Part shown: positions 39,497 through 52,084 of the stretch, in pieces
Layout: each line of letters begins with the position of its first letter
Position numbering within the stretch: the first letter of the stretch is position 1
Source of the DNA: an uncultured Phascolarctobacterium sp.
Lineage (GTDB): Bacteria > Bacillota > Negativicutes > Acidaminococcales > Acidaminococcaceae
NCBI GenBank assembly: GCA_949299135.1
Contig: CASFZG010000001.1
Location: forward strand, 124,001 to 188,000
Reading direction: 5' to 3'
Length of the DNA: 64,000 bases
The notes under the pieces: generated by a model
What the model was told of the DNA's origin: nothing
What the model saw: only the letters and a program-made list of their open reading frames with translations
Databases searched by the model: none
Program-made: the position numbers and the translations under genes

Positions 39497-41161
39497 TTAC
39501 TGCCGTTTTTTAGGCAGAACAAAGGTTATCGTTGTACCAACACCGGGTTCGCTTTCAAGCTCTACCCTGCCTTTGTGGAACAGCACGCCGTGCTTTACTA
39601 TGGAAAGCCCAAGCCCCGTGCCGCCAATTTCTTTGGAATGGCTCTTATCCGCTCTGTAAAAGCGTTCAAAAACGCGTTCCCTGTCGGCTGCGCCAATGCC
39701 AATGCCGGTATCGCTTACGCTGACAGTTACTTCTTCGCTGCCGTCCAGCACTTTAACATCAACTTTGCCGTTGTCTTTGTTGTATTTTATCGAATTATCG
39801 ACAAGATTATACAAAACTTCGCTTAAAATAGACTGCACACCGCAAACACATGCGCTGCTGCCGCTTACGTTAAGCGTTACGCCCTTGGTCTGTGCTTTAT
39901 GTTTCAAACGTAAAGTTACCGACTGCGCAAGTTTAAGCAAATCAACATCTTCAAACTCATCCAGCGTTTTATTTTCGTCCAGGCGGGAAAGCTCCATGAT
40001 GTTCTGAATAAGTTCTATCATATTGCCAGCTTCGGCGTGAATACGTTCCAAAAAGCGCTGTTTGTCCTCGTCTTTTACAAGGCCGTTTTTCATTATTTCG
40101 GCATAGCCCAAAATAGATTGCAGCGGGGTTTTAAGTTCGTGGGAAACATTGGCACTGAACTCGCGGCGCAGTTTTTCGGCTGTCATTTTTTCGGTAACAT
40201 CATAAATTAAAATAACACTGCCGCTGCCGTTTACGCTGCTGCCGGAAAGCTGGTAAAAATGCCCGTCTTTTTCGTAAAGCCCTTCGCCCTTACCTGCCTG
40301 CGAAACCTTCTGCAAAAGGTCCTGTACCTCCTGCGCACGGTCAACAGTTAAAATATTCCTGCCAATAACCTCTTTAGCGCTGAAGCCAAAAATTTTAGCC
40401 GCACTTTCGTTAATAAACAGCACATTCTGCTGCCCGTTTAACAAAACAAGCCCCTCATTCATGTTATTGGTAATAATGGTAAGTTCTTCCTGTTTACCGC
40501 GCAGCTTTTTAAGGTTTTTGCTCAGCTGGCGTTTCTGCTTGGCTATACGCGTTAAAAACGGAGCCAGCTCATCATAGGTTTCGTTGTCCAGCGGCTCGTC
40601 AAGGTTAACCTGGTCAAGAGGCTTAATAAGGTTAAACGTAACCCTGCGCGCCACAATGCTTGCCAAAAACGCAACCACAATTACAATGCCGCCCATTATC
40701 GGCAGCATTTGCAGCACCGATTTATAAATACTGTCAATAGTACGCGCAAGACGCAGTATTTTACCGTCTTCAAGGCGTACGGCATAATAATACGTTGTTT
40801 TATCAAGCGTATCCGAAAAACGCTCTGCTTCGCCCGCGCCAACGGCAACAGCATCCATAACTTCCTGCCTCATGGCATGGTTTTCAAGCGTTTTTGCTTC
40901 TGCCTGATTGTCAAAAAGCACTATGCCGTCTTTGTCTATAAGCGTTATGCGCACATTGCTGCCGTTTTCGGCCGCAATTTTATTTAAAAAGTCATTGCCG
41001 CCGCTTTCCAGCCCCATGCTGATATAGCGTGCTTCCTGTGCAAGTTCCTTTTTTGTTTCGTTAAAATAATCCTGCGAAACAAGGAAAGTTATCAAGCCCG
41101 ATGCTACAAGCACTGCCATTGCAGCCAGCGCCACCAGCGCGCGGAAAATTTTATTTTTCAT
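39497..41161 (-). CDS. phoR: Phosphate regulon sensor histidine kinase PhoR
   Basis: 554-residue membrane sensor. Two membrane helices (about 8-30 and 152-175) frame an extracytoplasmic domain of about 120 residues. A PAS domain follows (MNEGLVLLNGQQNVLFINESAAKIFG). The HisKA box EFSANVSHELKTPLQSILGY carries the phosphorylated His. HATPase_c has LYNLVDNSIKYN, SVSDTGIGIG and GGTGLGLSIVKH. The ATG at 41161 overlaps the phoB end by 11 nt. Partner of PhoB; it probably senses phosphate through PstSCAB-PhoU. Confidence 0.93.
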   Translation of the reverse strand: MKNKIFRALVALAAMAVLVASGLITFLVSQDYFNETKKELAQEARYISMGLESGGNDFLNKIAAENGSNVRITLIDKDGIVLFDNQAEAKTLENHAMRQEVMDAVAVGAGEAERFSDTLDKTTYYYAVRLEDGKILRLARTIDSIYKSVLQMLPIMGGIVIVVAFLASIVARRVTFNLIKPLDQVNLDEPLDNETYDELAPFLTRIAKQKRQLSKNLKKLRGKQEELTIITNNMNEGLVLLNGQQNVLFINESAAKIFGFSAKEVIGRNILTVDRAQEVQDLLQKVSQAGKGEGLYEKDGHFYQLSGSSVNGSGSVILIYDVTEKMTAEKLRREFSANVSHELKTPLQSILGYAEIMKNGLVKDEDKQRFLERIHAEAGNMIELIQNIMELSRLDENKTLDEFEDVDLLKLAQSVTLRLKHKAQTKGVTLNVSGSSACVCGVQSILSEVLYNLVDNSIKYNKDNGKVDVKVLDGSEEVTVSVSDTGIGIGAADRERVFERFYRADKSHSKEIGGTGLGLSIVKHGVLFHKGRVELESEPGVGTTITFVLPKKRQ

Positions 41162-41831
41162 GCTCCGCACCTATACGGTAGCCAACACCGCGCACGGTTT
41201 CAATAACCGTACTGGCGCTGCCGAGTTTCTGCCTGAGTGTGCGGATATGCACATCGACGGTTCTGGTTTCGCCTGCAAAATCATAGCCCCAGATATCGGT
41301 TAAAAGCTGTTCGCGGGTAAAAACCTGCCCCGGGCGTTCCATAAGCTTATGCAGAACTTCAAACTCTTTATAAGTCAGCACAACTTCTTCGCCGTTTACA
41401 AAAACCATATGGCGGGCAATATCCATGGTAATCAGGCCGTTGGTAAGCTCGCTCGATTTATCTTCTTTTACATAACGGCGCAGCACCGCTTTAACGCGCG
41501 ATACCATTTCCATCATACCGAACGGTTTGGCAATATAATCGTCTGCACCGCTGTCAAGCCCGTGTACTTTGTCGAACTCCGAACCTTTGGCCGTAGCCAT
41601 GATAACAGGAATGTCCGCAGTGCGCTTATCACGGCGCAGGCGTTTTAATATAGCCATACCGTCCTCGCCCGGCAGCATAATATCAAGAATTATCAGCTGC
41701 GGCAATACGGTTTCCAACGCTTTAAAAAGTTCATCGCCGCTTTCCAGCCCCAACGCCGGAAAACCGGTAGATTTTAAAGTATAAACTTCAAGTTCGCGGA
41801 TATTAGGATCGTCCTCCACGCAAAATATCAT
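41151..41831 (-). CDS. phoB: Phosphate regulon response regulator PhoB/PhoP
   Basis: 226 residues: receiver domain with acidic pocket CVEDDPN, phospho-acceptor Asp in LIILDIMLPGEDG (about residue 51), Thr/Ala switch and Lys in KPFGMMEM. The OmpR-type winged helix ends with VDVHIRTLRQKLG and TVRGVGYRIG. The ATG at 41831 follows GAGGAGG. It overlaps the phoU end by 29 nt, an unusually long but clear overlap. Confidence 0.94.
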   Translation of the reverse strand: MIFCVEDDPNIRELEVYTLKSTGFPALGLESGDELFKALETVLPQLIILDIMLPGEDGMAILKRLRRDKRTADIPVIMATAKGSEFDKVHGLDSGADDYIAKPFGMMEMVSRVKAVLRRYVKEDKSSELTNGLITMDIARHMVFVNGEEVVLTYKEFEVLHKLMERPGQVFTREQLLTDIWGYDFAGETRTVDVHIRTLRQKLGSASTVIETVRGVGYRIGAEHEK

Positions 41832-42483
41832 GTATGCTGTCCTCCTCAAGCGTTCCGGTTATCATAAACAATACCCATTGAGAGATATTTACAGCATGAT
41901 CACCGATTTTTTCAAAATATTTGGCAATCATAAGATAATCAATGGCCTGTTCGCCGCTGTCCTGAGAATTGCGGATAATCTGAATCAGCTCATGTTTGGA
42001 CTGGGCAAACAATTCGTCAACCTGGTCATCATCACGTTCAACCTGCTGGGCAGTACGGATATCGCTTTTTACAAAAGCATCCAGAGTATTGGATACCATC
42101 TTTTTGGTAGCGGCAGCCATTTTTTTAAGAATGCTTGTGTCATAGTCCATTCTTAAATTGTCCTGGCTTAAAATTTCGGCAATGTTGCCTGCTACTTCGC
42201 CGATACGGCGCATATCCGTTACCATTTTTAAAGCGGAAGAAATCTGGCGCAGGTCGGAAGCAACCGGCTGCTGTTTCAAAAGCAGGTTAATGCAGATGTT
42301 TTCCAGTTCCCTTTCTTTTTCTTCAGTTTTTTTGCTTAAAATAATTATATCCCTTGATACTTCGTCAGTAGGGTTCTCAAGCGCATTTGCAACTTTTTCC
42401 AGAGCGTTTTCGCACAGGGTGCCCATTACGATAAGTTCCGTATTGAGCTGCTCCATCTGTGCCATAAATCTGCTTCTTACCAT
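41803..42483 (-). CDS. phoU: Phosphate transport system regulator PhoU
   Basis: 226-residue, all-helical protein made of two PhoU repeats, each a three-helix bundle with metal-binding acidic residues (AGNIAEILSQD in the first, FEKIGDHAVNISQW in the second). It links the Pst transporter to PhoR signalling. The start shares one base with the pstB stop (TGATG) and has GGGAGG 8 nt upstream. Confidence 0.95.
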   Translation of the reverse strand: MVRSRFMAQMEQLNTELIVMGTLCENALEKVANALENPTDEVSRDIIILSKKTEEKERELENICINLLLKQQPVASDLRQISSALKMVTDMRRIGEVAGNIAEILSQDNLRMDYDTSILKKMAAATKKMVSNTLDAFVKSDIRTAQQVERDDDQVDELFAQSKHELIQIIRNSQDSGEQAIDYLMIAKYFEKIGDHAVNISQWVLFMITGTLEEDSIHDILRGGRS

Positions 42484-43235
42484 CAGCCAAACCTCCCTGT
42501 AATGTAATCTTCCGTCTTTTTCTCTCTCGGATTGCTGAACAGCGTTTCAGTGTCATTAAACTCAATAACCTCACCCAGAAGGAAGAAGGCTGTTTTATCG
42601 GAAATACGCACTGCCTGCTGCATATTGTGCGTTACTATAACAATAGTATAATTCTGTTTTAACTCTACTGCAAGGTCTTCAATTTTTAAAGTTGAAATCG
42701 GGTCAAGGGCGGAGGTCGGTTCGTCCATTAAAAGCACTTCGGGCTGTACGGCAAGGGCGCGTGCAATGCACAGGCGCTGCTGCTGGCCGCCGGAAAAGCC
42801 CAGCGCGCTTTTGTCAAGGCGGTCTTTTACTTCGTCCCAGATGGCTGCTTTGCGCAGAGAATCTTCAACAATATCATCCAGTTTGCTTTTGGAATGAATG
42901 CCATGGGTTCTCGGCCCGAAAGCAATGTTATCATAAACGCTCATCGGAAACGGGTTAGGCTTCTGGAACACCATGCCTACGCGTTTGCGGAGCATGTTAA
43001 CATCGTCATTCAGATAAATATCATCGCCGTTAAGCAAAACTTTGCCTGTTACACGGCAGCCTTCAACCAAATCGTTCATACGGTTCAGGCAGCGCAGCAA
43101 GGTGGATTTGCCGCAGCCGGAAGGCCCGATGAATGCAGTGATTTCTTTTTCACGGATATGCATGTTGATATCCTTCAATGCGTGAAATTCGCTGTAATAT
43201 AAATCGAGGTTTTGTATAGTAATTTTATCTTCCAT
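42483..43235 (-). CDS. pstB: Phosphate ABC transporter ATP-binding protein
   Basis: 250-residue ATPase. Walker [23 protein letters not shown]-loop [15 protein letters not shown] (typical of PstB), signature [18 protein letters not shown], Walker [13 protein letters not shown] and the H-loop His in VTHNMQQA. It begins 1 nt after the pstA stop and drives high-affinity phosphate uptake with PstCA. Confidence 0.98.
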
Positions 43236-43236
43236 C

Positions 43237-44097
43237 TCAGTTCCCTTTCATCAATTTACGTGCCAAATAAGAAGAAGCCGCGTTAATGGCAATTACAATT
43301 ACAACAAGTATAACAGCCGTTGCATAAGCCTGTTTCATAAAAAGGCCTTCGCTGGCAAGTACGTACATATGCACCGCCAGAGTACGGCCGGACGAAAACA
43401 CGTTGTGCGGCAGCGCTGCAACGGTACCGGAGGTATACATAAGCGCTGCGGTTTCGCCTACAATACGGCCAATGCCGAGAATTACGCCTGCCAGAATGCC
43501 TGGAATGGCAGAAGGCAGAACAATTGCAAATACCGTGCGCAGTTTGCCGGCGCCAAGGCCGTAGCTGCCTTCGCGGTAACTGTCGGGAATTGCTTTTAAC
43601 GCTTCTTCGGTAGTACGCATAATCAGCGGCAAAATCATAATTGCAACCGTGCAGGAGCCTGCAAGTAGCGAGTAGCTCCATTTTAAATAGGTTACAAAGA
43701 ACAGCATGCCGAACAAACCGTAAACAATAGAAGGAATACCGGACAAAGTATCTGCCGTAACCCTTACCACGCCGACAATTTTATTGTCGCGGCTTGCGTA
43801 TTCAACAAGGTAAATTGCTGCAAAGATGCCGAGCGGCGTGGCTATTGCCAGAGCCAGCAGCACCATGATAACGGTATCTACCAAAGCAGGGAAAAGTGAA
43901 ACGTTTTCCGTATTATATTCAAAAGCAAATAAATCTAAATTAATGTTCGGAATACCCTGCAAAAGAATGTAGCCCAACAAAAAGGCCAGCGACAGGAATG
44001 TAATTACTGCCGAAACTATTACGCATACAAGTAATGTCATGGACACAGGGTCGCGCCCGTACCTGTACAGCGTTTTGCTTAAAGAACTGCTGCTCAT
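43237..44097 (-). CDS. pstA: Phosphate ABC transporter permease PstA
   Basis: 286-residue permease with six membrane helices. Motifs: [32 protein letters not shown] and the ATPase-contacting [25 protein letters not shown] overlap with pstC. Confidence 0.97.
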
Positions 44098-44948
44098 TGC
44101 TGTACCACCTTACCCTTCAGATACGAGAACGTTAAATTGATAATGAGAATAAATATGAAAAGCACAACCGCCGTTGCAATAAGCGCGTCGCGGTGCATAT
44201 CGGCTGCGTAGCCCATTTCAATAACGATATTGGTCGTCATTGTACGCACGCCTTCAAGCAGACCCTGCGGCATACGTGCCTGGTTGCCCGCAACCATAAT
44301 TACTGCCATTGTTTCGCCAACCGCACGGCCAAGGCCCAGAATAATAGCCGCCATAATGCCGGATTTGGCAGCCGGCACAATCGTAAAAAATACGCTGCGC
44401 ACATGCCCTGCACCAAGTGCCAGAGCGCCTTCGTAATAGCTGTTGGGCACTGCCCTGAGTGCTGCTTCGGCAACGCTGATAAGGGTCGGCAGAATCATCA
44501 TGGCCAAAAGCAGTGAAGCCGTAAGCATGCTGCTGCCGGTGCCGCCAATGTTGTCGCGGATAAAAGGAACCATTACCACCAGGCCGAAGAAGCCATAAAC
44601 AACGGAAGGAATACCGGCCAGAAGTTCAACTGCCGGTTTTAAAAATCTGTAAATGCTGTCCGGGCAGAAACGAGCCATAAAAACAGCGGTTAAAATGCCG
44701 ATAGGCACGCCGACAACAATAGCGCCCAAAGTAACATAAGCGCTGCCCAGTATCATCGGCAAAATGCCGTACAAATCGTTATTAGGCCGCCATGTTTCGC
44801 CCAGGAAAAATTCAGTTACGCCAATTTTGCCTATTGTCGGCAGGCCGTTGCCGAACAAAAATACGCAAATCATTGCAACAAGGGCAATGGAAGCGCATGC
44901 CGCCAACAAAAAGACAAGGCGCATTATTTCTTCTTTACCTGTTTTCAT
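44094..44948 (-). CDS. pstC: Phosphate ABC transporter permease PstC
   Basis: 284-residue permease partner of PstA. Six helices, VGVPIGILTAVFMARFC, LAGIPSVVYGFFGLVV, and the coupling-helix region EAALRAVPNSYYEGALALGAG. The ATG at 44948 has GAGGG close by; a Met at residue 9 (44924) is a possible alternative. Confidence 0.97.
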   Translation of the reverse strand: MKTGKEEIMRLVFLLAACASIALVAMICVFLFGNGLPTIGKIGVTEFFLGETWRPNNDLYGILPMILGSAYVTLGAIVVGVPIGILTAVFMARFCPDSIYRFLKPAVELLAGIPSVVYGFFGLVVMVPFIRDNIGGTGSSMLTASLLLAMMILPTLISVAEAALRAVPNSYYEGALALGAGHVRSVFFTIVPAAKSGIMAAIILGLGRAVGETMAVIMVAGNQARMPQGLLEGVRTMTTNIVIEMGYAADMHRDALIATAVVLFIFILIINLTFSYLKGKVVQQ

Positions 44949-45063: not shown

Positions 45064-45948
45064 TTACAGTTTGTTCCATTCGGTTGCTTTACCGGTGAAG
45101 ATATCTGCAACCTGAGCTTTGGTAAGGTTATCAACCTTGTTGGCTTTGTTTACTACAACTGCAATGCCGTCGGTAGCAATAACGGTGTTTTTAACGCCTG
45201 CATCAAGTTCGCTCTGTTTCAGTTCGCGGGAAGCCATGCCGATATCGCATACGCCGTTGATTGCGGACTGAACGCCGGTGGTGGAGTCGCTCTGCTGAAC
45301 TTCGATGTTAACATCCGGATTCAGTTTTACATAAGCTTCTTTTAATTTTTCCATAACAGGGGTTACGGAAGAAGAACCGGCTACAACAATTTTGCCGCTC
45401 TGTTTGCTGCCTTTGTATGCTTCAGCTTTGTCGCTGCCAATGTAACCGTTTTTGGAAACTACTTCCTGGCCTTCTTTGGACATGATGAAGGAAATGAAGT
45501 CCTGAGCAACAGCGCTTACTCCGTCTTTAGTTACAATATTGAACGGACGGGCAACTTTGTAAGTGCCAGATTTAATATTTGCTGCGCTTGCTTCTGCGCC
45601 GTCAATTTTCAGTGCTTTAACGGTATCGTTTAAAGAACCGAGGGAGATATAGCCGATAGCGTCTTTGTTGCCTGCAACGGTGGTCATCATAACAGCGGTG
45701 CTGTTGGTGATGGAAGCGTCCTGAGTGGTCATATCAACTTTTTTGCCGTCGTCACCTTTCTTTTCAATGCCGAAAAGTTCGATGAATGCGCCGCGGGTGC
45801 CGCTGCCGTCTTCACGGGAAATTACAACGATTTTGCCGCCTGCTGCCGGAGCTGCTTCTTCTTTTTTCTCGCCGCCGCAGCCGGTGAATACAGCTGCACT
45901 CATAACTGCCAACATAACGCCTGCAATAAGTTTTTTGTTCATTTTCAT
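45064..45948 (-). CDS. pstS: Phosphate-binding lipoprotein PstS, circularly permuted
   Basis: 294-residue lipoprotein (lipobox VFTGC, Cys 24). The mature protein contains both halves of a PstS fold in the reverse of the usual order. Residues 39 to about 180 correspond to the normal second half: IVVISREDGSGTRGAF (phosphate-binding loop), AIGYISLGSLND, FISFIMSKEGQEVV. Residues 186-294 correspond to the normal first half: KIVVAGSSSVTPVMEKLKEA, CDIGMASRELK, TDGIAVVVNKANKV, and the protein stops right after IFTGKATEWNKL. I compared this with the canonical order from memory. All phosphate-binding elements seem present. It leads the pst operon behind a Pho box. Confidence 0.9.
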   Translation of the reverse strand: MKMNKKLIAGVMLAVMSAAVFTGCGGEKKEEAAPAAGGKIVVISREDGSGTRGAFIELFGIEKKGDDGKKVDMTTQDASITNSTAVMMTTVAGNKDAIGYISLGSLNDTVKALKIDGAEASAANIKSGTYKVARPFNIVTKDGVSAVAQDFISFIMSKEGQEVVSKNGYIGSDKAEAYKGSKQSGKIVVAGSSSVTPVMEKLKEAYVKLNPDVNIEVQQSDSTTGVQSAINGVCDIGMASRELKQSELDAGVKNTVIATDGIAVVVNKANKVDNLTKAQVADIFTGKATEWNKL

Positions 45949-46067: not shown

Positions 46068-46165
46068 ACGGCTCTGTTTTTCGGCAATTTTCTATAAAAA
46101 ACATTACATTTTTATTCCGTTATATAAAAACAGCCGGTTATATTTTAACCGGCAGCACAAATTTC

Positions 46166-46194: not shown

Positions 46195-46225
46195 GTAAAC
46201 AAGTAAAGGAAACGGAGTGATAATT

Positions 46226-47287
46226 ATGTCATCAGCAGATACTAAAGCCCATAAAACCGGCCCGGCGCGTCTTTTAACCGATGAAGACGTTTCAGCCCTG
46301 GAAGCTTTTGACGAAGGCTATGAAGCCTATTTTGGCAAAATGATTGATTATCTTGATAAATTTGTGGAACGGGGTGTAAAAGAAGGCCGCTTTACAGAGC
46401 AGCAGGCGGCGGAAGACCTGGAGCTTTCCCTGTGGTACGGCTTTGCCTACAACAATCTTGATATTTACCCTGCCTATTACCGCTCACTAGAGATAATGAA
46501 GCCCGCAGAAAAAAATGCCAAAGGCTGCGGCGCGTGGTACTACCGCTATTCTATTGCGCTTACGTACTGCGGCAAACCTGCCGAAGCTATGGAATATGCC
46601 GAAAAAGCAGTAACTGAAGAACCGACATATCCGTGGGGCTGGTTACAGGCAGCAAAGCTGCGTTATCACTTCGGCTCTACGGAAGGCGCATTGCAGGCCA
46701 TTGAAGAAGGCTTAAAGCTTGTGCCTGAAGACTACGAATTTTTAACGCTGCGTAAGGAAATCGGGCTCGGCTACACTTTGGAACAGCTTGAATACCACTG
46801 GATAGGGCCGGAACAGGACAAAAAGCTTCAAGCCGGGCTTGATAAGGACGCCGACGAAAAACAGCGCTCCATTGCCGGCATCATTAAAAACGAAGAACAA
46901 TTCAACAAAATAAAAATGCTGTTTGCCCCGCAGGACTGGGAAGCCGACTCTCCCTTCTGCCATGGGCTGATAGAACTGAACAACATTAAATTCCGCGTTA
47001 TGTTCCGCATGAACGAAGCGGCAATGTCAAAATTAAATTTTGACTGGCTGGCTGCACAAAAGGATATTATAGCCATGCACTATTTGCAGCGCCCCTGCGG
47101 CAGCGGCATTTGCCAGCTTGTGCTTGTTGTATTCAACCTTGATTACAGCATTACCCTTGTTTACTACGACCCTGCCAAAGACAGGCATTATGAAATAAGC
47201 ACTCCCAAAGAAGGAGCGCTTGATTCGCCGGTAATGCTGAATATGGAATTTCCGGACGAAGAAATAGACAACAGCAGCTTGAATTAA
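46226..47287 (+). CDS. TPR-repeat protein of unknown function
   Basis: 353 residues, no signal peptide. Residues about 65-170 form helical repeats of the TPR kind: GAWYYRYSIALTYCGKPAEAMEYAEKAV, then YPWGWLQAAKLRYHFGSTEGALQAIEEGLKLVP. The C-terminal part (about 215-345) is an alpha/beta domain of unknown family with repeated strand patterns (ELNNIKFRVMFRMN, CQLVLVVFNLDYSITLVYYD). The ATG at 46226 lies behind GGAAACGGAG. It is a monocistronic gene between promoter and terminator. A scaffold or regulatory role is possible but unsupported. Confidence 0.75.
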   Translation: MSSADTKAHKTGPARLLTDEDVSALEAFDEGYEAYFGKMIDYLDKFVERGVKEGRFTEQQAAEDLELSLWYGFAYNNLDIYPAYYRSLEIMKPAEKNAKGCGAWYYRYSIALTYCGKPAEAMEYAEKAVTEEPTYPWGWLQAAKLRYHFGSTEGALQAIEEGLKLVPEDYEFLTLRKEIGLGYTLEQLEYHWIGPEQDKKLQAGLDKDADEKQRSIAGIIKNEEQFNKIKMLFAPQDWEADSPFCHGLIELNNIKFRVMFRMNEAAMSKLNFDWLAAQKDIIAMHYLQRPCGSGICQLVLVVFNLDYSITLVYYDPAKDRHYEISTPKEGALDSPVMLNMEFPDEEIDNSSLN

Positions 47288-47378: not shown

Positions 47379-48092
47379 TTATTTTTTCTTTTTGCCAAGG
47401 TAAGCGGCTTTGATTTCAGGATTTTCCAAAAGTTCGGCACCGGTGCCGCTCATAGTAATTTTACCTGTTTCAAGCACGTAGGCACGGTGGGCAACTTTCA
47501 GCGCCATATTGGCGTTCTGTTCAATCAAAAGTATCGTCATGCCTTTGGAATTGATGTACTGAATAATGTTAAAAATATCTTTAATAATCAGCGGCGCAAG
47601 GCCAAGCGAAGGTTCGTCCATCATCAAAAGTTCCGGACGCGACAACAGTGCCCTGCCAACCGCCAGCATCTGCTGCTCGCCGCCGGAAAGCGTACCTGCC
47701 ATCTGCCAGCTGCGCTCCTGTAAACGCGGGAACATTTCATATACCCAGTCGATATCCTTTTGAATACCTTCTTTATCGCTGCGCATGTATGCGCCAATCT
47801 GCAAATTTTCCAGCACTGTAAGGTTAGGGAAAATGCGGCGCCCTTCCGGCACCAGTGTTAAACCTTTTTTTACAATCTGCTGCGAATTAAGCCCCGTAAT
47901 ATTATCGCCGTTATAAACTATCTGCCCGCTTTCAGGCTTTACAAGGCCGACAATGCTGCGCAGCAGCGTGCTTTTGCCTGCACCGTTGGCACCGATAAGG
48001 GTAACAATCTGCCCTTTGGGCACTTCAAGTGAAATTCCCTTTAAGGCTTCAATGCCTCCGTAGGATACGACAAGATTTTCTACTTTAAGCAT
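47379..48092 (-). CDS. livF: Branched-chain amino acid ABC transporter ATP-binding protein LivF
   Basis: 237-residue ATPase. Walker A LIGANGAGKSTLLRSI, LVPEGRRIFPNLTVLENLQ (LivF-type Q-loop region), signature LSGGEQQMLAVGRAL, Walker B LLMMDEPSLGLAP, ending with NPEIKAAYLG. The ATG at 48092 lies inside the livG end, which it overlaps by 8 nt, with GGGGGTG upstream. The longer frame to 48164 is not needed. Confidence 0.95.
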   Translation of the reverse strand: MLKVENLVVSYGGIEALKGISLEVPKGQIVTLIGANGAGKSTLLRSIVGLVKPESGQIVYNGDNITGLNSQQIVKKGLTLVPEGRRIFPNLTVLENLQIGAYMRSDKEGIQKDIDWVYEMFPRLQERSWQMAGTLSGGEQQMLAVGRALLSRPELLMMDEPSLGLAPLIIKDIFNIIQYINSKGMTILLIEQNANMALKVAHRAYVLETGKITMSGTGAELLENPEIKAAYLGKKKK

Positions 48093-48867
48093 CTTCATCC
48101 ACCCCCAGGTAAGCATCAATAACCCTCTGGTTATTTTGAATTTCTTCAGGCGTGCCTTCGGCAATGGTCATGCCGAATTCCAGCACATAAATGCGGTCGG
48201 AAATTTCCATAACCAAATCCATATGATGTTCAATCATAAATACCGTTAAATTGTATTCTTTATGAATCTGGCGGATAAATTCCGTAAGTTCTTCCGTTTC
48301 TTTCGGGTTCATACCTGCCGCAGGCTCATCAAGCAGTAACAGGCGCGGCCTGGTTGCCAGTGCGCGCACAATTTCAAGGCGGCGCTGCTGGCCGTAAGGC
48401 AGGCTGGAAGCCTTTTCGTTGCGCAAATCCCACAAGCCTACTTCCTGCAAAAGTTTTTCGGTATTGCGGTGCATTTGTTTGGCTTCTTTCATGTACCACG
48501 GCAGATGCAGTGTTGCCGAAAGAAAATCCGATTTTAAATGCAGATGGTTCGCAATCAGAACATTTTCATAAACCGTTAAATCTTTAAAAAGCCTTATATT
48601 CTGGAAAGTACGGGCAATGCCAAGTTTGGCAATTTCACTCGGGCGCTGGCCGGTAATATCAATATCCTGCCCCTGCGCATCGGTGTAAATAACTTTGCCT
48701 TCGGTCGGCGTATAAACGCCGGTAATCATGTTAAAGGCCGTTGTTTTACCGGCACCGTTAGGGCCAATCAAAGCAATAATTTCATGGTCATTAATTTCTA
48801 TGTTCAGTTTATAAACAGCGGTTACACCGCCGAACTGCATGGTAATATCATTGGTTTTTAAAATCAT
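48085..48867 (-). CDS. livG: Branched-chain amino acid ABC transporter ATP-binding protein LivG
   Basis: 260-residue ATPase with Walker A LIGPNGAGKTTAFNMITG, GIARTFQNIRLFKDLTVYENV, signature SLPYGQQRRLEIVRALA, Walker B LLLDEPAAGMNPKE and VFMIEHHMDLVM. The LivG-specific long insert after the Q-loop is present. It overlaps livM by 4 nt. Confidence 0.96.
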   Translation of the reverse strand: MILKTNDITMQFGGVTAVYKLNIEINDHEIIALIGPNGAGKTTAFNMITGVYTPTEGKVIYTDAQGQDIDITGQRPSEIAKLGIARTFQNIRLFKDLTVYENVLIANHLHLKSDFLSATLHLPWYMKEAKQMHRNTEKLLQEVGLWDLRNEKASSLPYGQQRRLEIVRALATRPRLLLLDEPAAGMNPKETEELTEFIRQIHKEYNLTVFMIEHHMDLVMEISDRIYVLEFGMTIAEGTPEEIQNNQRVIDAYLGVDEDA

Positions 48868-49931
48868 TGCGCAGCCCCTTTCCGCTTAATAAAGCCAAGA
48901 GGATTTTTTACAAAATTAATGGCTTTCTGCCAGGAAAATTCCCGCGTGCCCATAATGCCGTGGCGCCAGAACAGTACGCATACCATTAAGAGTACGGAGA
49001 AAATAACCATACGGAAGCCCGGGCGGAACAGCGGAATATCCATGCCGAACAGCATCAGCGGCTCGTCGAAGAAACGCAGGTATTCCAGCCCTGCCGTTAC
49101 GATAATGGCGCCAATTGCACTGCCGGTAATGCTGCCCATGCCGCCAAGCACGATAATCAGCAAAAAGTTATAAGTAAGCGTAAAAAGGAAGTTTTTCGGG
49201 TCAACCGTGCCTAAAAGCGCACCGTACAAACCGCCGCCGATACCTGCAAAAAACGCACTTACCATAAAGGCAAGGTTTTTATGCCAGAACAGGTTAATGC
49301 CCATTGCTTCGGCAGCAATTTCGTCTTCACGGATGGCTTTAAAAGCCCTGCCGTAAGAGGAATTAACCAAAAGCGTAATAAATACAAAGCTGATAAGCGT
49401 TACAAGGAAGATATAGCGCACGTCGTTCAGCGGCGGAATATCCTTAATGCCCAGCGCGCCGTTGGTAATGCTCTGCGCGTTGGTAATCCAGATACGGATT
49501 ATTTCAGAAAAGCCGAGCGTTGTTACTGCAAGGTAGTCGCCGCGCAAACGCAGCACCGGCGTACCAATCATAAACGCAAACAGCGCGGCAAGCACGCCGC
49601 CCAAAAGCAGCGCCGCCCACAGCGGCAGTTCTATATCCGCAATAAGCGGATTCATAGGCACAGCATAAAAAACATTTTCCCTGTATTCAACAGGAACGGT
49701 AAAAATACCTACGGTATAAGCGCCGATAGCCATAAAACCTGCCTGCCCCAGTGAAAACTGCCCTACAAAACCATTGGTTAAGTTCATGGAAAGGCCGATA
49801 ATGGCATATACAAGGCACAAATTAACAATTCTGCGGATATAAGAGTCCATTTCCTCCTGAACGAAAAACGCAAGCCCGAAAAGGACAATTATGCCGGCTA
49901 TGGTTAACAAAGCATCTCTTTTTTTCGTCAT
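48864..49931 (-). CDS. livM: Branched-chain amino acid ABC transporter permease LivM
   Basis: 355-residue permease with about eight to nine membrane helices. GFVGQFSLGQAGFMAIGAYT is the family landmark, with LRGDYLAVTTLGFSEIIR and the coupling-loop region GRAFKAIREDEIAAEAMGIN. It starts 2 nt after livH. Confidence 0.96.
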   Translation of the reverse strand: MTKKRDALLTIAGIIVLFGLAFFVQEEMDSYIRRIVNLCLVYAIIGLSMNLTNGFVGQFSLGQAGFMAIGAYTVGIFTVPVEYRENVFYAVPMNPLIADIELPLWAALLLGGVLAALFAFMIGTPVLRLRGDYLAVTTLGFSEIIRIWITNAQSITNGALGIKDIPPLNDVRYIFLVTLISFVFITLLVNSSYGRAFKAIREDEIAAEAMGINLFWHKNLAFMVSAFFAGIGGGLYGALLGTVDPKNFLFTLTYNFLLIIVLGGMGSITGSAIGAIIVTAGLEYLRFFDEPLMLFGMDIPLFRPGFRMVIFSVLLMVCVLFWRHGIMGTREFSWQKAINFVKNPLGFIKRKGAAQ

Positions 49932-49933
49932 AA

Positions 49934-50854
49934 TTACACCTTCTCCGTTGTTTTTTCGCCCAAAAGGCCAGTAGGTTTATAAAACAGAATAACAATAAGC
50001 ACAATAAAAGCAAAGGCATCGCGGTAGCCGCTTAAATCTGGGAAGAAAGCTACAATTAAAATTTCGCCAAGGCCCAGAATAAAGCCGCCCAGCACTGCGC
50101 CCTTGATGTTGCCTATGCCGCCGATAACGGCCGCAATAAAGCATTTCAGGCCGGGCATAACGCCCATCATCGGCGTAATGCCGGGATAACGGATGCCGTA
50201 CATGATAGCGCCGATTGCTGCCAGCGCCGAACCTATAATAAAGGTAATGGAAATAACATTATCAATATTAATGCCCATTACTCTGGCAATTTCGTAATCT
50301 TTGGAAACCGCACGCATGGCCATGCCTGTTTTGGTATGGTTTACAATGTGCAGCAGCACTACAAGGCTGATAATAGTTACAACAGGAATTACAAGGCAGA
50401 TTGCCTGAATTTCTATGCCGCCGACGCTGATGTTCTGCGACAGGAGCGGCACATCCGGAAAACGCATCGGGCGTCCGCTGAAAAGATAGTTGGCAAGGTT
50501 TTCCAGCAAAAACGATGCGCCGATAGCGGAAATTAAAATAGAATTTTTAGGCGCTTCACGGAGCGGGCGGTAAGCACTGCGCTCTATTAACACACCAAGC
50601 AGCGCCGTCATAATAATTGTTATGATAAAAGTAAAATACCACGGAATATGAAAAGCCGTAATTCCGAAAAAAGCAAAATAACATGCCATCATTACAATGT
50701 CGCCATGGGCAAAGTTAATCATCAGCAAAATGCCGTATACCATTGTATAGCCTATTGCTATCAATGCGTACAGGCTGCCGAGCGATATTCCGTTAACCAT
50801 GTGCTGCACAAAGCTCAGCGCCGACATGTTGGCAATAGCGTCAAAAAACTCCAT
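49934..50854 (-). CDS. livH: Branched-chain amino acid ABC transporter permease LivH
   Basis: 306-residue permease with eight predicted helices. Motifs: NGISLGSLYALIAIGYTMVYG, INFAHGDIVMM, and the ATPase-facing GMAMRAVSKDYEIARVMGIN. GAGGTG precedes the ATG. First permease gene after the binding protein. Confidence 0.96.
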   Translation of the reverse strand: MEFFDAIANMSALSFVQHMVNGISLGSLYALIAIGYTMVYGILLMINFAHGDIVMMACYFAFFGITAFHIPWYFTFIITIIMTALLGVLIERSAYRPLREAPKNSILISAIGASFLLENLANYLFSGRPMRFPDVPLLSQNISVGGIEIQAICLVIPVVTIISLVVLLHIVNHTKTGMAMRAVSKDYEIARVMGINIDNVISITFIIGSALAAIGAIMYGIRYPGITPMMGVMPGLKCFIAAVIGGIGNIKGAVLGGFILGLGEILIVAFFPDLSGYRDAFAFIVLIVILFYKPTGLLGEKTTEKV

Positions 50855-50878
50855 AAGGGCACCTCATAACCAAAAAAC

Positions 50879-50906
50879 TGCTCCCTTCCCTCAAAGGAAG
50901 GGAGCA
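50879..50906 (-). terminator. Hairpin with T-run between livJ and livH
   Basis: GCTCCCTTCC pairs with GGAAGGGAGC (small loop, possible shift), followed on the minus strand by AGTTTTTTGG. It would terminate part of the transcripts after livJ, giving excess binding protein. Confidence 0.8.
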
Positions 50907-50926
50907 CCTTTTACTTAAATTTTAAA

Positions 50927-52084
50927 TCACTTAGCTTCTACGTAATCTTTAAAGGTAAATTTGCCGTCTTTAACGGTTTTAATAACAACGCCTTTAATCG
51001 GGTCGCCGTTTTCATCAAGCGTGGTCATGCCGGTTACACATTCAAGGTCTTTGGTTGCGGCAATCGCATCGCGGATTTTAACGGTATCGGTTGCAGTACC
51101 TGCTTTTTCAATGCCGCTTACGGCAATCAGGTAAGCATCATAAGCCATTGCTGTTAAAGCGGAAGGTTCGCCGTTGTATTCTTTAGTGTAAGCATCAAGG
51201 AATTTCTTAGCTTCTTCGGTGCTTGCTTTTTCGCGGTCAAACGCGGTGGAAAGTGCAACGCCTTCAACATCTTTGCCGCCTACATCAATAAATTCCTGAG
51301 TTTCCCAGGTATCGCCGCCCATGAACTGTGCGTCAATGCCAAGCTGGCGTGCCTGTTTAACCAAAAGTGCAGATTCGGTGAAGTTGCCGGGTGCAAATAC
51401 TGCGTCCGGGTTCAAAGCTTTGATGTTGGTTAAAATAGCGGTAAAGTCTTTATCGCCGGTCTGATAGTTGGCAACATCAACAATGCTGTTTTCGTCGCCG
51501 GTCAGTTTAACAAACTCTTCGCGGAAGAATTTTGCAAGGCCTACAGAGTAGTCATTGGAAACTTCCTGTACAATGGCAACTTTCTTAAAGCCGTTCTGGT
51601 GTGCATATTCTGCCATTACCTTGCCCTGGAACGGGTCGATAAAGCATGCACGGAAGTAATAATCATTGTTTGCGGTTACCTGCGGGTTGGTGCAGCTTGT
51701 GCCAACAGCAGGAACTTTGTTTTCTTTAACTATATTGCCGGCAGCCATAGAAAGGGAAGAACCGTAAGAACCAACCAGCACGCTTACTTTATCCTTTTCA
51801 ATAAGGCGTGCCGCAACGGATGCAGCTTCTGCTTTATCGGATTTGTTGTCTGCTACAACCAGTTCAACTTTTTTGCCCAAAACTTCGGGATGCAGCTGAT
51901 TTGCAAGTTTAATGCCGCGCAGTTCCAGTTCGCCGCCGGCGGCATTATCGCCTGTCAGCGGTAAAAATACGCCAACCTTTACTACATTCTGGTCGGCAGC
52001 TTTTTCTTCGCCGCCGCAGCCGGTAAACAGGCCCATAGCCAAAGCCGAAACAGCCATAACGGATAATAATTTCTTGAATTTCAC
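50927..52084 (-). CDS. livJ: Branched-chain amino acid-binding lipoprotein
   Basis: 385-residue type I periplasmic binding protein with a lipobox (LFTGC, Cys 23), so anchored to the cytoplasmic membrane. Fold landmarks: VKVGVFLPLTGDNAAGGELELRG (split at residue 40), VLVGSYGSSLSMAAGNI, NDYYFRACFIDPFQGKVMAEYA, GGDTWETQEF and TAMAYDAYLIA. Specificity for Leu/Ile/Val is inferred from the liv cluster; related proteins take other amino acids. The start is a GTG at 52084, with AAGGGG about 11 nt upstream. Confidence 0.92.
   Translation of the reverse strand: MKFKKLLSVMAVSALAMGLFTGCGGEEKAADQNVVKVGVFLPLTGDNAAGGELELRGIKLANQLHPEVLGKKVELVVADNKSDKAEAASVAARLIEKDKVSVLVGSYGSSLSMAAGNIVKENKVPAVGTSCTNPQVTANNDYYFRACFIDPFQGKVMAEYAHQNGFKKVAIVQEVSNDYSVGLAKFFREEFVKLTGDENSIVDVANYQTGDKDFTAILTNIKALNPDAVFAPGNFTESALLVKQARQLGIDAQFMGGDTWETQEFIDVGGKDVEGVALSTAFDREKASTEEAKKFLDAYTKEYNGEPSALTAMAYDAYLIAVSGIEKAGTATDTVKIRDAIAATKDLECVTGMTTLDENGDPIKGVVIKTVKDGKFTFKDYVEAK

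Follow-up and report, generated by a model that had tools for sequence, protein, structure and literature searches.

The window, i.e. the whole 64,000-nucleotide stretch of DNA analysed here, comes from an uncultured Phascolarctobacterium sp. and carries a pst operon in which pstS is followed on the same strand by pstC, pstA, pstB, phoU, phoP and phoR (45948 down to 39497). An earlier note on this DNA had described the gene at 45064-45948 as a pstS with its two halves swapped that had kept its place at the head of the operon. These coordinates are exact, corresponding to a minus-strand ORF of 294 aa, and the same-strand run of genes down to phoR agrees with the proposed position. The features are as follows.

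45064 to 45948, minus strand: permuted pstS, an uninterrupted ORF for a 294-aa lipoprotein
45877 to 45948, minus strand: signal peptide, residues 1-24, with lipobox-like VFTGC (from the sequence)
45427 to 45834, minus strand: canonically C-terminal half, residues 39-174 (Pfam, NCBIfam and PDB-chain alignments, doubled-sequence test)
Residues 44-52, within the half 39-174: phosphate loop SREDGSGTR, aligned to the Arg125 region of 4Q8R
45397 to 45426, minus strand: linker uniting the old C- and N-termini, residues 175-184 (gap between the half matches)
45067 to 45396, minus strand: canonically N-terminal half, residues 185-294, GKIVVAGSSSVTP ... IFTGKATEWNKL (Pfam, NCBIfam and PDB-chain alignments, doubled-sequence test)
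44094 to 44948, minus strand: pstC permease
43237 to 44097, minus strand: pstA permease
42483 to 43235, minus strand: pstB ATPase
41803 to 42483, minus strand: phoU
41151 to 41849, minus strand: phoP-type response regulator
39497 to 41170, minus strand: phoR-type histidine kinase

Judging from the lipobox-like motif, Cys24 would be the lipid anchor site of the protein; the lipobox pattern is present in 94 of the 114 permuted PstS ORFs described below. Behind the signal peptide, the ORF translation continues with a short linker and then with KIVVISREDGSGTRGAF... from residue 39. The phosphate loop had been placed at residue 39, which is correct for the half as such, as it opens at K39, but the motif SREDGSGTRGAF itself is located at 44-55. 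The second half extends from GKIVVAGSSSVTPVMEKL... at residue 185 up to the terminal IFTGKATEWNKL; the start of KIVVAGSSSVTP at 186 and this chain end are both as previously given. The gap separating the two half matches measures 13-19 aa across permuted ORFs. Searching the genome with the window PstS as query, we found no second PstS-like gene, and the other matches covered signal peptides or brief N-terminal portions of other proteins.

Within the operon, phoU overlaps the following phoP by up to 47 bases (41803-41849) if the first TTG is taken as the phoP start. On the other side of pstS, a terminator-like hairpin is located in the intergenic region (46133-46153), followed by a divergent gene for a 356-aa protein with tetratricopeptide repeats (Pfam TPR_14; 46217-47287) and by what appears, by sequence inspection, to be an ordinary and complete ABC set of the branched-chain amino acid type with two ATPases, two permeases and a binding lipoprotein (47379-52084).

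Order of the two halves and structure of the protein

Both Pfam PF12849 and NCBIfam TIGR02136 match the window PstS as two swapped stretches. The PF12849 score of 125.4 bits is far above the gathering cut-off of 27 bits and places the protein in the PBP_like_2 superfamily. Canonical PstS proteins of known structure (4GD5, 4Q8R, 1TWY and 4EXL) could likewise be aligned only as two swapped pieces. In the case of 4GD5, residues 181-294 of the query correspond to 33-146 of the chain and residues 39-168 to 152-274, with i-Evalues of 4e-24 to 4e-27 for each half. Doubling one of two compared sequences is the classical test for circular permutation. We aligned the window PstS locally to 51 canonical PstS sequences, single and doubled, and the median score rose from 252 to 439, with a gain of at least 1.52-fold in all 51 cases. 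Doubling brought at most a 1.03-fold gain in canonical-canonical controls (n=167) and at most 1.003 in permuted-permuted controls. A single alignment then crosses the junction; for example, 258 residues from the mature window PstS pair with positions 117-358 of the doubled 245-residue sequence L116. The i-Evalues of the two halves against 4GD5, together with the consistent gain from doubling, exclude chance. As the earlier note had claimed, the two halves are genuinely in circularly permuted order, and the window PstS is a permutant of short PstS. With the phosphate-loop half first and the GSSS half second in one chain, it is of the same type as the pneumococcal PstS2 structure 4H1X, which is collinear with it by sequence (35-294 to 6-264, E 3e-68).

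An apparent swap could also be produced by two fragments, a mis-assembly, a wrong frame or a wrongly chosen start of a canonical PstS, and the low, two-piece TIGR02136 score of the window PstS (see below) is the sole point in favour of such an artefact. We regard its probability as negligible given that the ORF is uninterrupted and has a signal peptide, that four congeneric genomes carry the same order at 96-100 % identity and a near relative from a public assembly at 98 %, that it recurs in 114 ORFs drawn from numerous independent assemblies, and that 4H1X, the crystal structure of a relative, has the same order of halves. The reading as fragments or mis-assembly was ruled out by the congeners, the more distant relatives and 4H1X.

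A structure model built by AF2 with 67 aligned permuted relatives reached a mean pLDDT of 91 and superseded a poor single-sequence prediction (pLDDT 35). When the model was searched with Foldseek and VIA-align, 4H1X ranked first by far and matched sequentially over the full length (Z 35.5, 255 residues, 1.8 A, TM 0.93, 50 % identity). Sequential matches to canonical PstS structures were limited to residues 33-174, with Z of 8-12, which is the pattern predicted by permutation. A sequential equivalence to canonical PstS, named in the earlier note as the observation that would speak against permutation, was thus not seen: canonical structures cover 33-174 only and 4H1X covers the whole model. The model was also matched sequentially over its whole length by OpuAC (Z 10.6). 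On the basis of this model, we confidently predict that the window PstS folds like the solved pneumococcal PstS2.

The position of the new termini seems to differ from what had been proposed. The long crossing strand of the model comprises residues 253-266, with the chain end about 28 residues further on. Going by the established anatomy of PstS, this point should lie inside the second lobe, so the earlier placement of the termini at the hinge is probably wrong. A cut inside the second lobe would mean that the lipid anchor has shifted and is attached to the second lobe instead of the first. The anchor would then lead into the second lobe, and the short linker in the first lobe would unite the old termini.

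Distribution and origin of permuted PstS

A scan of genome contigs returned at least 557 confirmed relatives. The best 80 of these, from which the taxonomy was taken, include Acidaminococcaceae, Lachnospiraceae, Oscillospiraceae, Peptococcaceae, Monoglobus and Streptococcus on the Bacillota side, as well as Eggerthellaceae, Coriobacteriaceae, Desulfovibrionaceae and Treponema. The suspicion that similar proteins exist in other Firmicutes was therefore well founded, with four phyla among the matches listed. Half-profile classification sorted 165 ORFs having both halves into 114 of permuted order, a minimum for the family, and 51 of canonical order; the ORF of L065, which the contig end reduces to a fragment of one half, stands outside the 165. 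Searches of sampled genomes gave full-length permuted matches in 16 of 61 genomes comprising the window genome and its near relatives, in 7/199 sampled genomes from the phylum of Blautia and in 4/198 from the phylum of Paraeggerthella (the query centre being counted in the latter two). Where the extent of the contig permits, almost all permuted loci continue as pstS-pstC-pstA onward, and the gene almost always heads pstSCAB-phoU-phoPR. Permuted PstS is a large existing family, present in many gut bacteria.

A normal permuted pst operon follows 3.5 kb downstream of the gene for a divergent permuted PstS-like lipoprotein with 34 % identity to the window protein (L061:1511-2425); by sequence inspection, this gene is flanked by a polyphosphate kinase-like gene on one side and by one for an NptA-like Na/phosphate cotransporter with PhoU-like tail on the other. 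Two tandem permuted pstS genes precede pstC in an Anaerotignum MAG (L047:394-2330). Permuted pstS occurs also on records listed as plasmids, NZ_OY725727.1:4405-5274 from Monoglobus pectinilyticus and NZ_AP025290.1:32221-33081 from Treponema saccharophilum. Full-length or near full-length permuted PstS was found on five short, unannotated 'Bacteriophage sp.' records from human faeces (MT837962.1, MT837530.1, MT838145.1, MT838544.1 and MT837061.1), which are probably bacterial DNA in viral preparations and not phage genes.

For the PstS phylogeny, cores were re-cut into canonical order and 39 thinned permuted sequences were placed among canonical ones. Of these, 38 formed one clade (99/98), nested among canonical PstS and containing the window protein. 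The PstC proteins of permuted operons, including that of the window, also form one clade relative to those of canonical operons (97/99). The single outlier was L146:626-1564, a permuted PstS of only 39 % identity with a pstC behind it, very divergent and placed on a long branch away from the main clade when the tree was unconstrained. Either fast evolution or a second permutation event could account for this.

The position of L146 and the patchy spread of the permuted form are the points that speak for several independent origins in different lineages. An example of the latter is genus g17 of the window's family, where the permuted form is present in two genomes and the canonical one in a third; such mixture within a genus means that replacement or transfer has taken place. 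However, transfer of operons accounts for the patchiness, the cut site is identical in all permuted sequences inspected, divergent ones among them, and constraining L146 into one permuted clade was not rejected by the AU test (p 0.67) and gave an even higher likelihood than the free tree. Its PstC also falls into the clade of the permuted operons. A second origin for L146 was not adopted, based on the AU test and the PstC tree, and we give little credence to repeated origins in general. These phylogenies are best explained by a single old permutation that was then passed on by descent and by transfer of the operon. Most likely it occurred once, in an ancestor of the permuted clade, and the gene then spread by descent and horizontal transfer along with the PstC lineage that belongs to it.

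The event did not take place in the present lineage, as the permutation is old and common to one clade. As for the duplication-and-trim route proposed in the earlier note, duplication is the textbook way to a permutation (PMC3320104). Three tandem canonical pstS-like genes (L148:923-3905) occur in another genome of the class to which the window belongs and could possibly have served as raw material. No fused or partly trimmed intermediates, with three half-domains per ORF, were seen among the 165 classified ORFs. Given the tandem copies in L148 and L047, a duplication-and-trim route to permuted pstS is possible.

Phosphate binding, annotation and comparison with known systems

Residues R45, G48, S49, G50, T51, G191, S192, S194, S222, S240 and R241 are invariant in 67 permuted proteins, as is the phosphate motif RExGSGT. 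R45 of the window PstS corresponds in the alignment to Arg125, a phosphate ligand in C. perfringens PstS 4Q8R (PMC12421899). In the pneumococcus, Pst1 and Pst2 both import Pi, and a double mutant loses ~50 % of uptake (PMC4913102); 4H1X (SP_2084, 'PstS 2') was equated with the PstS2 of Zheng et al. by the shared name. Because the site residues are invariant and Pst2 imports phosphate, the window gene most likely encodes the working phosphate-binding lipoprotein of the cell, a prediction from sequence and from analogy. Another oxyanion such as molybdate, sulfate or phosphonate might be considered as the ligand, as type II anion-binding proteins have a common fold and there is a weak Pfam SBP_bac_11 match. 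This is very improbable in view of the pstCAB-phoU-phoPR context, the invariant phosphate motif, PstS being the nearest protein in every library (Pfam, NCBIfam and PDB chains), and the gene being the sole PstS found in the genome.

Taken as a whole, the protein is best explained as the working PstS of a PstSCAB importer, circularly permuted by one ancestral event, to which we assign a probability of about 90 %. As in ordinary Pst systems, phosphate would be captured in Venus-flytrap fashion by the closing of both lobes on the ligand, and the closed PstS would hand it to PstC/PstA.

The permuted form is poorly served by current annotation. The window PstS scores 194.8 bits with TIGR02136, under the cut-off of 206.6 bits for canonical PstS, and together with seven other permuted PstS falls in the range of 180-206 bits, as opposed to 270-277 bits for three canonical controls. 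This is probably why the two RefSeq plasmid copies carry the generic name 'substrate-binding domain-containing protein', and genomes with permuted PstS alone can therefore seem to lack PstS. The family thus exposes a gap, in that standard annotation fails to name its members. We found no description of a circular permutation of PstS in the open-licence literature, recent permutation-detection papers included, which is only a weak indication that none exists. The rearrangement in the window is itself not new, as it belongs to a widespread family with a crystal structure since 2012.

Permuted PstS is a clear natural permutation of a transporter protein known from textbooks. As its structure is solved and its origin, probably a single one, can be traced, it is well suited for studying what makes permutants persist and in which way the position of the anchor affects docking. 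More speculatively, it may be an unrecognised major subfamily of single origin that has co-evolved with its own PstC and in which the shift of the anchor altered docking to the permease. We consider this composite proposal rather unlikely; if true, the shift to the second lobe would be a functional difference in binding-protein docking and not a neutral reshuffle.

The closest known system is PstS2 of Streptococcus pneumoniae (SP_2084, PDB 4H1X, released 2012), which has the same order of halves and is collinear over the whole mature chain with 50 % identity. It belongs to the second of two Pst systems, whereas the window PstS is the only one found in its genome, and the pneumococcal two-component genes adjoin pst1 (PMC4913102), whereas phoPR is included in the window operon. 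Canonical short PstS of the TIGR02136 type (C. perfringens 4GD5/4Q8R, V. cholerae 1TWY) is homologous in both halves (30-42 % identity) and has the same phosphate-site residues, but the halves are oppositely ordered. ABC binding proteins with a natural permutation are already known. TpMglB-2 of Treponema pallidum (Tp0684) is a lipid-tethered ABC binding protein that kept ligand binding in permuted form, and its authors propose a link of permutation with tethering (PMC4990184); unlike the window PstS, it has a Type I sugar-binding fold, another cut site and another ligand. Among type II binding proteins, the glycine betaine-binding OpuAC and ProX are related by natural circular permutation (PMC2395249), but OpuAC differs from the window PstS in its ligand, shares ~16 % identity with it and belongs to a separate family.
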